DNA of 43,477 nt from positions 1-43,477 of the forward strand of contig JAFAJV010000017.1 in assembly GCA_019235995.1 (NCBI GenBank). Direction: 5' to 3'. Shown one piece after another: positions 18,346 to 23,106 of the stretch. The notes beneath the pieces are model-generated. The model did not search any database. It was not told where the DNA came from and worked only from the letters and a program-made list of their open reading frames with translations. Position numbers and translations under genes: made by a program. This DNA comes from Vulcanimicrobiota bacterium. GTDB taxonomy: Bacteria > Vulcanimicrobiota > Vulcanimicrobiia > Vulcanimicrobiales > Vulcanimicrobiaceae. Every line of letters starts with the position of its first letter. Positions within the stretch are counted from its first letter, which is position 1.

Positions 18346-18888
18346 TTAGCGAAGCGCGGCGACCCCTACGACACCCGATAGGAGGATGAGCACGGGCGTA
18401 CTGAGTTTGGTACGGAGCATCAGGACCGTCACGACCGCAGCCACTGCGTATGCCACCCAGCTCACCGCAACGCCTCGCGCGATCGTCCAGACGCTGGACC
18501 AGACCAGACCGACGATCGCCGGCGCCAGGCCCTGCGCGATGATGACGCGCCACGGCGACGCCTGGAAGCGCACCCAGAGCGCATCGAAGGCCACCATGAT
18601 GGCGCTCGACGGAACGAACATCGCGATCGTCGCCACGGTCGCGCCGAGCAACGGTCGCCCGGGGATAGCCGCGTAGCCGACCAGCGCCGCGAAGATGGTC
18701 GTCGGGCCGGGCACGAGCTTGCCGATCGTGTAGAACTGCGTGAACTGTTGCGAAGTCACCCATTGGTAACGCGTCACCGCATCGTAGTGCATCTGCGGGA
18801 TGATGCCCTTGCCGCCTCCGAAGCCCAGCACCGAGAGCTGCGCAAAGGTCCACAGCAGGTGCAGCAGATTATCGGCAAACCCGCTCAT
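18346..18888 (-). CDS. chrA: Chromate transporter, second half-size subunit
   Basis: The 180-residue membrane protein starts MSGFADNLLHLLWTFAQLSV and carries the CHR domain motifs GFGGGKGIIPQMHYDAVTRY and GKLVPGPTTIFAALVGYAAI. About six hydrophobic segments follow. It is a short-chain (single-domain) CHR protein and pairs with the adjacent half to form the equivalent of the two-domain ChrA. Family members export chromate, but other anions are possible. The ATG overlaps the preceding stop (ATGA). Confidence 0.88.
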   Translation of the reverse strand: MSGFADNLLHLLWTFAQLSVLGFGGGKGIIPQMHYDAVTRYQWVTSQQFTQFYTIGKLVPGPTTIFAALVGYAAIPGRPLLGATVATIAMFVPSSAIMVAFDALWVRFQASPWRVIIAQGLAPAIVGLVWSSVWTIARGVAVSWVAYAVAAVVTVLMLRTKLSTPVLILLSGVVGVAALR

Positions 18889-19442
18889 TGCTTGGGCCTT
18901 CGCGTCGTGACGTATTGGTGCACTATGCCGATGCCCCCGAAGATCACGAGCACGAGCAGCAGGGGCATGTGCAAGAGCGATACGGTAACGGCGGTCAGCG
19001 CGAGCAGGACGATGCGCGCCCAATCGGCGCGTTCGTCCCAAGCGAGCTCCAGCGCGTTGCCGACCGTCAGCCCGAGCGCGCCGGCCGCGCATCCGCGCAA
19101 CGCTCCTTGAACGAATGGGTTCGCCGAGTACTTGAAATAGAGCGCGCCCGCGATCAGCACGATGATGAACGGCGGAATGCTTGCGCCCAAGAACGCCGCG
19201 ACGGCGCCGGGGACGCCGCGCACGCGCTGGCCGCAATAGAGCGCGAGGTTTAGGATGTTCGGCCCGGGGAGGATCTGCGAGATCTCTAGGCCGTCCATGA
19301 AACAGTCGCGGTCCATCCAGCCGCGCTTGAGGACCTGCTGTCGGACGCTCGCCTTTTGACCTCCGCCGAACGCCGTCGAGGAGATCGCCGCAAAAGTCAG
19401 CGCAATGCTGGAAAGCGATGGGCGAGCATCGTCACGAGACAT
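18885..19442 (-). CDS. chrA: Chromate transporter, first half-size subunit
   Basis: The 185-residue membrane protein has the CHR motifs STAFGGGQKASVRQQVLKRG and ISQILPGPNILNLALYCGQR. Its partner starts inside its stop codon, so the two are translated as a coupled pair. Its start overlaps the end of the HIT-family gene upstream by 11 bases, giving a HIT-chr-chr-SRPBCC-acyl-CoA dehydrogenase transcript order. Confidence 0.88.
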   Translation of the reverse strand: MSRDDARPSLSSIALTFAAISSTAFGGGQKASVRQQVLKRGWMDRDCFMDGLEISQILPGPNILNLALYCGQRVRGVPGAVAAFLGASIPPFIIVLIAGALYFKYSANPFVQGALRGCAAGALGLTVGNALELAWDERADWARIVLLALTAVTVSLLHMPLLLVLVIFGGIGIVHQYVTTRRPKQ

Positions 19443-19875
19443 CGGCGAGCGGGCCGTCGACCATCGGCGACGTGTGCTTGCCCGCGAGGATGTGTATGTG
19501 CACGTGCTCGGTGTGCTGGTACGGCGGAAGCACTCCCATGCGGATCATGAAGCCCTTGTCGCAGAGGCCCAGCGCGAACGCGACCCGCTGGATCCCGGCG
19601 ACCAGGCGATGCCAAACCTTTCCGTCGCCGAGCCCCAAGTCGAGGAGCGTGGGGACCCACTTCTTGGGGATGATGACGACGTGGTACTCCCACCACTCTT
19701 CCTTGCTCTGATCGATGTTGTGACGGAACGCGAACACGTCGTCGTCTTCGTAGACGATCTCGTCGGCCTTGGCGCGCGTACCGTCGAGCCGGCCCCGGAA
19801 CGTGTGCTCGGGATCGGGCTTCTCCCAGACGCGCTGCTCCGGCCCGCTGATCAATTCCGAAATCCAGAGAGCCAT
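19432..19875 (-). CDS. HIT-family nucleotide hydrolase/transferase
   Basis: With the ATG at 19875 the protein has 147 residues (an ATG at 19890 is also possible). The histidine triad is intact: HTEHVHIHILAGKH, with H124, H126 and H128. The N-terminal part has DEIVYEDDDVFAFRHNIDQS and the HVVIIPKKWVPTLLDL strand typical of HIT folds. HIT proteins act on nucleotide-phosphoramidate or dinucleoside substrates. It is divergent from a HIT-like paralogue starting near 19936, and its 3' end overlaps the chromate transporter gene. Confidence 0.85.
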   Translation of the reverse strand: MALWISELISGPEQRVWEKPDPEHTFRGRLDGTRAKADEIVYEDDDVFAFRHNIDQSKEEWWEYHVVIIPKKWVPTLLDLGLGDGKVWHRLVAGIQRVAFALGLCDKGFMIRMGVLPPYQHTEHVHIHILAGKHTSPMVDGPLADVS

Positions 19876-19935
19876 TGAACGATGCTTCATGCACCGCAGG
19901 CAGGCGTCCTCTTGGAAACGGTGAAGCTGCGCCGC

Positions 19936-20373
19936 ATGAGCGCGTTGCGAAAGAGGGACACCCTCAGTCCCGCCGAGGTCTTGGGAGCGCGCCCGAACTG
20001 GACCAAGGAGCCCAAGGCGTGGGAGCACGCGGTGGGCGACAGCGAGATCGTGTACGAAGACCGGCACGTTATCGTCTTTCACGATCCGGAAGACGAGGAG
20101 CACGAGTCGGAGCGCATCGCCGGCGAGATCCGGCTGACGCTGCTGGCCAAAAAAGACGGCGTCGACAGCCTCATGGATCTGGGCGTCGCCGACGAGACGC
20201 TCAACGCCGCGATCCTGCACGGCATCCAGCAGGCCGCGCTGCGGCTCGGCCTCGAGAAGAAAGGCTTCGAGGTGCGCGCGCACGTGTATCCTCCGCTGCA
20301 GCACCGGCCCGAGCTCGCGTTCAAAATTCGCGCCGGCAAACCCCCGAAGAAAGCCGCCGACTCGCTAGGCTGA
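19936..20373 (+). CDS. HIT-like paralogue lacking the histidine triad
   Basis: The 145-residue protein (ATG at 19936; ATG at 19882 and GTG at 19921 are alternatives) is collinear with the divergent HIT protein. Shared blocks are SEIVYEDRHVIVF, DSLMDLGV, HGIQQAALRLGLEKKGFEVR and YPPLQHRPELAFKIRAGK. Where the active paralogue has H-x-H-x-H this protein has E126, A128 and K130, so the catalytic triad is gone while the flanking QH and AGK remain. It is probably a binding or regulatory protein, or a heterodimer partner. Its stop overlaps the glyoxalase-fold gene. Confidence 0.75.
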   Translation: MSALRKRDTLSPAEVLGARPNWTKEPKAWEHAVGDSEIVYEDRHVIVFHDPEDEEHESERIAGEIRLTLLAKKDGVDSLMDLGVADETLNAAILHGIQQAALRLGLEKKGFEVRAHVYPPLQHRPELAFKIRAGKPPKKAADSLG

Positions 20374-21306: not shown

Positions 21307-21573
21307 CTATTCCTGCGGCTTCTTGCCGAACGGCAATCGCGCCGCCAGGGCAGCCTCCCTTTCGGCGAGCTTCGCCAGCGACTGAATCACCACGATCGCG
21401 ATGAGCGTCACCACCACGGCGTACAGGAGCTCCGCCCAGATCCCGTTACCCGGTTTCAAGAACACGGCAATGAGGTCCGCGATGAACTTGTTCCAAGCGC
21501 CCGCCGCGAGGAGCCCGAAAGCCACCGTTGCCAATGCGATCATCGTGCCGAGATAGGTCGGTTTGATTTCCAT
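21307..21573 (-). CDS. DUF5654-like small membrane protein
   Basis: The 88-residue protein has two hydrophobic segments (IALATVAFGLLAAGAWNKFI and LLYAVVVTLIAIVVIQSLAK) and ends with a charged cytosolic tail. The AFGL-x-AA-x-AWN-x-x-I pattern matches what I remember of the DUF5654 family, which has no known function. A strong AGGAGG ribosome site lies just upstream of the ATG. It is convergent with the GNAT gene and divergent from the MFS gene. Confidence 0.7.
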   Translation of the reverse strand: MEIKPTYLGTMIALATVAFGLLAAGAWNKFIADLIAVFLKPGNGIWAELLYAVVVTLIAIVVIQSLAKLAEREAALAARLPFGKKPQE

Positions 21574-21638: not shown

Positions 21639-22808
21639 ATGAACGGAGTGCCTGCCCGGTGGATCGTCGCGGCCATGATCGGCGTCGCATTCATGGGCAG
21701 CGGACTGATCACGCCGCTCTACGCGATCTACCAGCGAGCGTTCAACTTCCCCGAGGTCACCCTCACCTTCGTCTATGCGGTATACGCACTTGGAAATCTC
21801 GCGGCGCTGCTCTTTTTTGGAAAGGTTTCCGATTGCATCGGGCGCCGCATCGTCGGCATCGCGAGCGTTGCTCTCGGGTGCGCGAGCATGCTGCTGTTTT
21901 TCTTCGCGGCCGGCACCGCATGGCTGTTCTTCGGGCGCATCCTCAGCGGCATCGCCGTGGGCCTCGCCTCGGGCACGGGCACGGCGTGGCTGGCCGACCT
22001 CGACGAGGACCGGTCCCGAGCGACGCTGATCGCGACGCTGGCCAACGCGTTGGGATTCGCGCTCGGTCCGCTTCTCGGCGGGCTGCTGGCGCAGTATGGG
22101 CTCGCGCCGCTGCGCACGCCGTTTCTCCTCTACTTGCCGGTGCTCGTCGTCATCGGACTCCTCGTTGCCTTCACGCACGAAACGGTGAACTCACGCGGGA
22201 AAGCAAACCTCGAGCTGTTACGTCCCCGCGTCGGCGTGCCCAAGCCGATCCTTGGACAGTTCATCGCGCCCGCAGTGACGTGCTTCGCGACCTTTGCGCT
22301 CGTCGGCTTTTATGCGGGGCTCATTCCGACGGTGCTGAAGGAGTATCTTCACCTGTCCGCGCCGGCGGCGTCGGGAGCCGTGGTTTTCGAGCTGGCGCTG
22401 GCCGCGGCGGTCGCGACGTACCTCGGACGGGACGTCGAAAGCCGCGCCGCTATGCTGAGCGCGTTGGTCCTGCTGCTGCCCTGCGTCGGACTTCTGTTAG
22501 CAGCACAGTCGACGCACTCTTTGGCGACGCTTCTCGTGGCGACCGCGCTCGGTGGATTCTGCTGGGGACTGGGCATCCGCGGCTCACTGCACATCGCTAA
22601 CGAGATCGCGCCCAGCGATCGTCGAGGCGAGGTCGCCTCGACGTACTTCATAGCCGGCTTCGTGGGGAATTCGATTCCGGTGATCGTCGTCGGCCTGATT
22701 ACCGTCGTGTCAAACTCGTGGATCGCGAGCCTGACGTTCGGCTGTTCGATCGCGCTGTTTGCGGTAGCCGCGGTGCTCGTCGGGGCGCGTTATCCCTCTA
22801 CGCCTTGA
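21639..22808 (+). CDS. MFS transporter, drug-efflux-like
   Basis: The protein has 12 predicted hydrophobic segments. Motif A is visible as [15 protein letters not shown] in the second loop, and a proline/glycine-rich [14 protein letters not shown] (motif C-like) lies in segment 5. This places it with 12-segment drug or metabolite efflux MFS proteins. I chose the ATG at 21639 (389 residues). A GTG at 21588 is in frame but would leave almost no room for divergent promoters. The 3' end overlaps the convergent rpsJ by 11 bases. Confidence 0.8.
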
Positions 22809-23106
22809 GCTCGATGTCCACGCCCGCGGGCAGGTCGAGGTGCATCAGCGCGTCCATCGTTTTCGGCGAGGCCTGAAGGATGTCGATGAGCCGTTTGTGC
22901 GTGCGCATCTCGAAGTGCTCGCGCGACTTCTTGTCGTTGTTGGTCGAACGTTGCACGCAAAACCGATTGATCTCGGTCGGGAGGGGCACCGGGCCGCTGA
23001 CGAAGGCGCCGGTGCGCTTCGCCGTCTCGACGATGCGCTCCGCCGACTGATCCAGGACCTTGTGATCATACGCCTTGAGGCGTATGCGAATCATCTGCTT
23101 CGCCAT
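22798..23106 (-). CDS. rpsJ: 30S ribosomal protein uS10
   Basis: The 102-residue protein ([60 protein letters not shown]) is a standard uS10/NusE. It is also a transcription antitermination factor partner in other bacteria. It follows tuf by 27 bases with AGGA before its ATG. Normally rplC follows; here the next minus-strand ribosomal gene is 8 kb away and the convergent MFS gene runs into its stop. Confidence 0.97.

Follow-up and report, generated by a model that had tools for sequence, protein, structure and literature searches.

The stretch of DNA analyzed here (the window) comprises 43,477 nucleotides of contig JAFAJV010000017.1, from assembly GCA_019235995.1 of a Vulcanimicrobiota bacterium, and carries two divergent genes for HIT proteins. 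The gene for protein A lies on the reverse strand (19432..19875) and that for protein B on the forward strand (19936..20373), with coordinates, strands and motifs as described in the first-pass annotation. The genes stand head to head, as had also been proposed, with 60 bases between the likely starts at 19875 and 19936, and this divergent intergenic region (19876..19935) is common to both. Behind A, on the reverse strand, lie the first and second halves of a split CHR (chromate-type) transporter, ChrA1 (18885..19442) and ChrA2 (18346..18888), and in the window these genes overlap, ChrA1 sharing 11 bases with the end of A and ChrA2 sharing 4 with ChrA1. A DUF5654 protein is encoded beyond B on the opposite strand (21310-21573), and further out are two ribosomal genes of the S10 operon, L3 (14041-14670) and S10 (22801-23106). 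The operon is split in the window: S10 and L3 are 8.1 kb apart, and between them lie unrelated genes that include the four-gene unit of B, A, chrA1 and chrA2.

Protein A has 147 amino acids (its sequence includes PPYQHTEHVHIHILAGKH) and bears an intact triad, HVHIHIL (H124-V-H126-I-H128), with H65 as the helper histidine. Its match to PF01230 scores 32.6 bits (E 1.3e-7), above the curated cut-off of 21.5, and the three triad histidines and the helper histidine are present in all 20 complete A orthologues. In genome G005 only part of A is present, at the edge of a contig and with an in-frame TAG some 20 bases away from this edge; this copy was therefore excluded from the A counts and alignments. 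An AlphaFold2 model of A is HIT-like at modest confidence (pLDDT 69.1); against the PDB, its best Foldseek match has an E of 1.3e-5, and its best VIA match (100 residues aligned, rmsd 3.2) has a Z of 8.7, barely higher than the Z of 7 to 8 that serves as a noise guide. With its triad intact, A looks like an active HIT enzyme. It resembles the HINT branch (E. coli HinT, human HINT1) in its triad and helper histidine and matches hinT by sequence, but it differs from hinT in carrying an insertion before strand 3, which by alignment B shares, and a long conserved N-terminal extension (residues 1-36; 19768-19875, reverse strand) that lies outside the matched HIT domain. Within this extension, KPDPxHTFRGRLDGTR is invariant at 15 of its 16 positions across the 20 complete A proteins. 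The FRDISPQ Asp of E. coli hinT, a ribose contact, corresponds to a histidine in A (H52, 20/20), and the strand 2 Asp by which the HINT branch is recognized is thus not found in A. A was also considered as an ordinary housekeeping HIT protein, and this assignment was rejected: its own genome carries a separate and stronger PF01230 match (82.9 bits, contig C19), and the tree described below gives A and B a branch of their own. A PADLOC search for defence systems returned one weak match for A (ThsC, E 0.0034) and none for B or ChrA1.

Protein B has 145 amino acids (including PPLQHRPELAFKIRAGKPP) from an ATG at 19936, a start supported by where its orthologues begin in the alignment. That it is a paralogue of A, as first suggested from shared motifs, is confirmed by BLASTP (40 of 107 residues identical, 37%; E 7e-18) and by comparison of the A and B family profiles (99.6% probability, E 7e-25). 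The triad site of the window B reads ELAFKIR (E126-L-A128-F-K130), and the helper histidine is replaced by R66. The reported replacement of the triad by E-x-A-x-K consequently stands, with the refinement that the residues vary somewhat among the 21 B orthologues: the first position is E in 17, A in two, and F and Y in one each; the second, that of the nucleophile, is A in 18 and otherwise T, K or R; and the third is K in 19 and otherwise R or Q. No histidine occupies any of the three positions in any of the 21 proteins, and the helper histidine is an arginine in all of them. A frameshift restoring the triad, which had been named as a possible refutation, is ruled out, as the frame is open in all 21 and the alignment continues across the triad and beyond it. 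An Asp corresponding to that of hinT FRDISPQ is kept in 20 of 21 B proteins. B also carries a set of basic residues (R66, K72 and R132 in 21/21, R114 invariant, K130 in 19/21), which would suit an anionic ligand, and an invariant glutamine, Q122 (21/21).

The window B has no match to PF01230 up to an E of 1, and this family is listed for one of the 21 B members (E 0.0026). Against DcpS_C (PF11969) the window B scores 15.9 bits, under the curated cut-off of 24; the same family is listed for 15 of the 21 members at an E of 0.1 or less (best 4.1e-5), values among which some may correspond to scores over the cut-off. Besides this weak DcpS_C match, the Pfam search of the 145 residues found no other domain. 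An AlphaFold2 model built from the B-only alignment is again HIT-like at modest confidence (pLDDT 69.6, pTM 0.63), with best PDB matches to 4inc_B by Foldseek (E 5.0e-5) and to 4zgl_A by VIA (Z 11.6, rmsd 2.8, 96 aligned), and among the PDB matches listed HINT-like proteins lead for the models of both A and B. B is predicted, then, to retain the HIT fold, and by homology it should be without HIT catalysis. It is under purifying selection and is not decaying: in eight hand-picked genome pairs, the same for both genes, dN/dS (Nei-Gojobori) ranges from 0.064 to 0.239 for B and from 0.045 to 0.126 for A, with dS above 0.9, near saturation, in three of the eight pairs for each gene. B evolves faster than A (mean column identity of 59% versus 84%), part of the lower value being due to gappy B tails. 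A longer, charged C-terminal tail and the site Y-x-R-x-K set the B protein of G125 (L105, 5733-6254) apart from the remaining B proteins.

A search of relatives for the same head-to-head pair, which the first-pass annotation had recommended, located it in 21 of the 149 phylum genomes searched. The B profile matched in 22 of the 149, one of which (G052) was set aside because its match is a canonical HIT protein, and the remaining 21 genomes belong to six genera, all within one family. In each of these 21, B stands head to head with A; the A profile, run on the same 149 genomes, identified the long form of A in these 21 and nowhere else, its matches in other genomes of the phylum having an E of 8.1e-10 or weaker. 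None of the 149 genomes yielded just one of the two genes. In the genus of the window the pair is present in 14 of 18 genomes, and both A and B are absent from the other four (G001, G011, G012 and G014), two of which are 94 and 96% complete. A weak A match in G014 (E 1.5e-4) was rejected as a canonical HIT protein by its position in the tree. A scan of a wider genome collection with the A profile yielded 15 loci, of which 14 are in Candidatus Eremiobacterota or Eremiobacteria MAGs and the fifteenth, in Elusimicrobia, is only distantly related (30% identity); the scan was built on two peptide patterns, so that distant relatives could be missed. In the phylum set, 13 A and 14 B sequences are letter-for-letter identical to sequences in those scanned loci. 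A plasmid search with A returned two Proteus records at 31% identity, and searches with B of plasmids and of viral contigs gave no match. In a tree of 57 rows, A (96/95) and B (95/93) each form a clade, and the joint A and B clade (100/100) is separate from 16 canonical HIT proteins of the phylum, which represent 16 of 18 such loci (L120 and L143 were missed by the motif filter). G125 and G019 are deepest within both the A and the B clades; the B of G019 was flagged for its long branch and L133 for its composition. The simplest history compatible with this tree would be a single ancient duplication, after which the two genes were inherited, or transferred, together.

The strongest clue to function, absent from the first-pass annotation, is the conserved split CHR transporter. 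ChrA1 (121.2 bits, E 5.9e-35) and ChrA2 (122.4 bits, E 2.6e-35) both score far above the PF02417 cut-off of 28.6 bits, and in 20 of the 21 genomes both halves lie behind A, on its strand; in the twenty-first, G005, the contig stops within A. The ChrA1 of G016 (L097, 8659-9106) matches in two pieces, which suggests a broken frame or an assembly error. CHR (ChrA) transporters made as two halves are an established type, from which ChrA1 and ChrA2 differ in being linked to a HIT pair. CHR matches occur in 83 of the 149 genomes, so that the CHR family as such is not special. No HIT-like gene lies beside the other CHR copies at nine loci, L121-L129 (one chance match, E 0.63), and since these include three further CHR loci, those of the pair-bearing G000, G010 and G125, CHR transporters do not generally depend on the pair. 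The pair-linked ChrA1 proteins are 46-95% identical to that of the window, against 25-41% for other CHR copies in significant matches (eight loci in seven genomes, three of which, G000, G010 and G125, carry the pair; L125 was left out), in a comparison restricted to pieces of at least 100 amino acids, and hence without the first half from G016. A quick CHR tree, in which rows are labelled by best-matching query and not by true half, unites the linked first halves in one group (SH-aLRT 97); the second half from G125 is without firm placement, and several long branches are flagged.

The proposal of a dead partner beside an active-looking enzyme is borne out by the loss of the triad and helper histidine in all 21 B proteins, by the selection acting on B and by the co-occurrence of A in all 21 genomes. 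Conservation of a dead copy side by side with its counterpart suggests a working partner and not a relic, and a heteromer of A and B, also raised at first pass, is plausible on indirect grounds. Identity between A and B over residues 94-118 of A averages 53% (range 32-68%) across 20 genomes, compared with 31% (22-41%) elsewhere in the domain, and this segment matches the helix and strand of the HINT1 dimer interface. The segment was picked after viewing the alignment and hence constitutes support and not a blind test; its similarity may instead reflect a folding constraint. HINT1 dimerises via its sheet and central helix (PMC6789022), with Tyr94-Glu100 at the interface of a homodimer of identical chains (PMC7934415); in the present case, by contrast, a separate dead paralogue exists. 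As to the companion suggestion, a sensor of the same ligand, a common ligand is not evident, because the pocket residues of A and B differ.

In view of the co-occurrence of A and B in 21/21 genomes and of both CHR halves in 20/21, also where other neighbours differ, we see the evidence as evenly poised on whether B, A, chrA1 and chrA2 work together as a single functional module, in which an A:B heteromeric HIT unit would be tied to an anion transporter. After duplication, the ancestral HIT homodimer would have become an A:B heterodimer or mixed oligomer. A would cleave a nucleotidyl adduct (nucleoside-5'-phosphate-X) via its central histidine, and B would contribute its side of the dimer contact along with the C-terminal tail, which in HIT dimers may line the pocket of the adjoining chain; in MccH, the pocket has been modelled as lined partly by the C-terminal loop of the neighbour chain (PMC7157772). 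The basic residues of B (R66, K72, R114, R132 and, in most orthologues, K130) might bind an anionic or nucleotide effector, so that B would regulate A or set its specificity while A catalyses. The HIT unit might then serve the CHR transporter, in the simplest case by processing or sensing the transported anion or its adenylylated form, and one divergent intergenic region would keep the two subunits balanced, even if opposite strands are no guarantee of equal expression of A and B. We infer that an A:B heterodimer, with A catalytic and B in charge of regulation or specificity, is the most economical model, and it is likewise by conjecture that a substrate and a transported ion are assigned to the unit. 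The link to an anion transporter fits the heteromeric model but is not proof of it. The open-licence literature searched contained no report linking adenosine 5-phosphosulfate with the histidine triad, and a connection to adenylyl-sulfate consequently stays a guess.

B could instead act as a stand-alone, homodimeric and non-catalytic sensor of a nucleotide or anion that A makes or destroys, regulating the transporter or its expression without any complex with A. The Asp kept in 20/21 B proteins and the invariant R66, R114, R132 and K72 are congruent with a ligand-binding role of this kind, and so is a stretch of the intergenic region that is common within the genus. This stretch, GCAGGCGTCCTCT (19900-19912), lies midway between the two starts; GCAGGCGTCCTYT occurs between A and B in 10 of the 13 genus genomes compared and in none of seven from outside, and the core CGTCCTYT in all 13 of the genus. 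GCAGGCGTCCTYT is found once in its own genome, as is a control in which it is read backwards. A free-standing regulator is harder to reconcile with the lack of any recognized domain in B other than the weak DcpS_C match, and with the peak of A/B resemblance at what is probably the dimer interface. We regard this reading as possible, albeit unlikely.

The pair might also represent an inverted duplication left in place, with B in an unrelated role and its adjacency to A just inherited. The unit lies in an S10/L3 context in 13 of the 21 genomes (11 with both S10 and L3, G077 with L3 only and G004 with S10 only within the fetched stretch), all 13 of which also have the DUF5654 gene, and much of the adjacency could thus be co-inherited. 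Nevertheless, the four genes stay together in different surroundings in G003, G009, G016, G017, G019 and G125, where none of ACAD, DUF5654, S10 and EF-Tu is found beside the unit in stretches reaching at least 5 kb past one of its ends (the contigs of G005 and G015 are too short to judge the context), and the genes of the pair are missing together where they are missing. The gap from S10 to L3 was measured between match ends and compared by hand. Among genomes that carry S10 and L3 on a single contig, it is 5-31 bases in all 11 class-mates belonging to family f3, and 2.0-8.9 kb within the genus of the window. It measures 6.0-8.9 kb with the pair inside (G000, G002, G006, G007, G008, G010 and G013); with the pair on another contig, it is 2.2 kb in G009, 3.2 kb in G003, 3.4 kb in G016 and 4.1 kb in G019; and without the pair it is 2.0 kb in G001 and G012 and 2.5-4.2 kb in G021, G022, G023, G025 and G026. 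Given these gaps in pair-less genomes, the operon split is wider than the pair. The unit as a whole seems to be gained and lost, or to relocate, in one piece. Mere inheritance of the arrangement is improbable in our estimation.

Less probable still is that B is an enzyme with a new, non-histidine chemistry based on R66, K130, R132 and Q122, three of which are invariant (R66, R132 and Q122, 21/21) while K130 is present in 19/21. A precedent is MccH, of the HxHxK phosphoramidase clade, an active HIT enzyme that naturally has Lys in place of the third histidine and Phe in place of the helper one, and in which a change of the nucleophile (H101N) abolishes activity (PMC7157772). The third histidine replaced by Lys and the loss of the helper histidine are features of 19 of the 21 B proteins as well. 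However, MccH retains the nucleophile histidine and is active, whereas B has A, T, K or R at the central position in 21/21 and thus lies outside the HxHxK clade; moreover, the first and second triad positions of B drift (E/A/F/Y and A/T/K/R). Finally, the view of B as a decaying pseudogene or an assembly error, for which its faster evolution might be cited, can be practically discarded, as it is refuted by frames open in 21/21, a dN/dS of 0.06-0.24 and conservation in six genera.

The pairing of A with B has a parallel among known proteins. GalT (galactose-1-phosphate uridylyltransferase) combines two HIT-like halves in a single chain, of which one alone has the active-site motif, and the likeness lies in the pairing of an active with a degenerate HIT domain. 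GalT is one polypeptide and has HPH, the motif given for this member of the histidine triad superfamily, whereas here there are two divergent genes and a full triad in A. For many bacterial HIT proteins, to our knowledge, neither the natural substrates nor the mode of regulation has been settled. In open-licence literature, which includes few subscription journals, we found no report joining HIT proteins with a CHR transporter and none describing a HIT pseudoenzyme pair, nor, among the titles and abstract openings listed, one on a dead HIT paralogue; neither "histidine triad" nor "HIT family" appears in the main text of a study on Arthrobacter chromate resistance genes (PMC2751784). HIT proteins, pseudoenzymes and CHR transporters are each already known.

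A conserved active/dead HIT pair with its transporter offers a genetic handle of four small genes, through which the control of a HIT enzyme by a pseudoenzyme and the role of HIT proteins in anion handling become directly testable, and CHR transporters whose substrate is unknown gain a new context. It is tempting to go further and postulate an obligate two-gene hetero-HIT enzyme, with one catalytic and one pseudoenzyme subunit, that cleaves or senses a nucleotidyl-anion adduct and thereby controls the split CHR anion transporter, a speculative and rather unlikely proposal as it stands. If true, this enzyme would be a direct link from HIT nucleotide chemistry to oxyanion transport, and, spread over two genes, an equivalent of the active-plus-degenerate arrangement of GalT.
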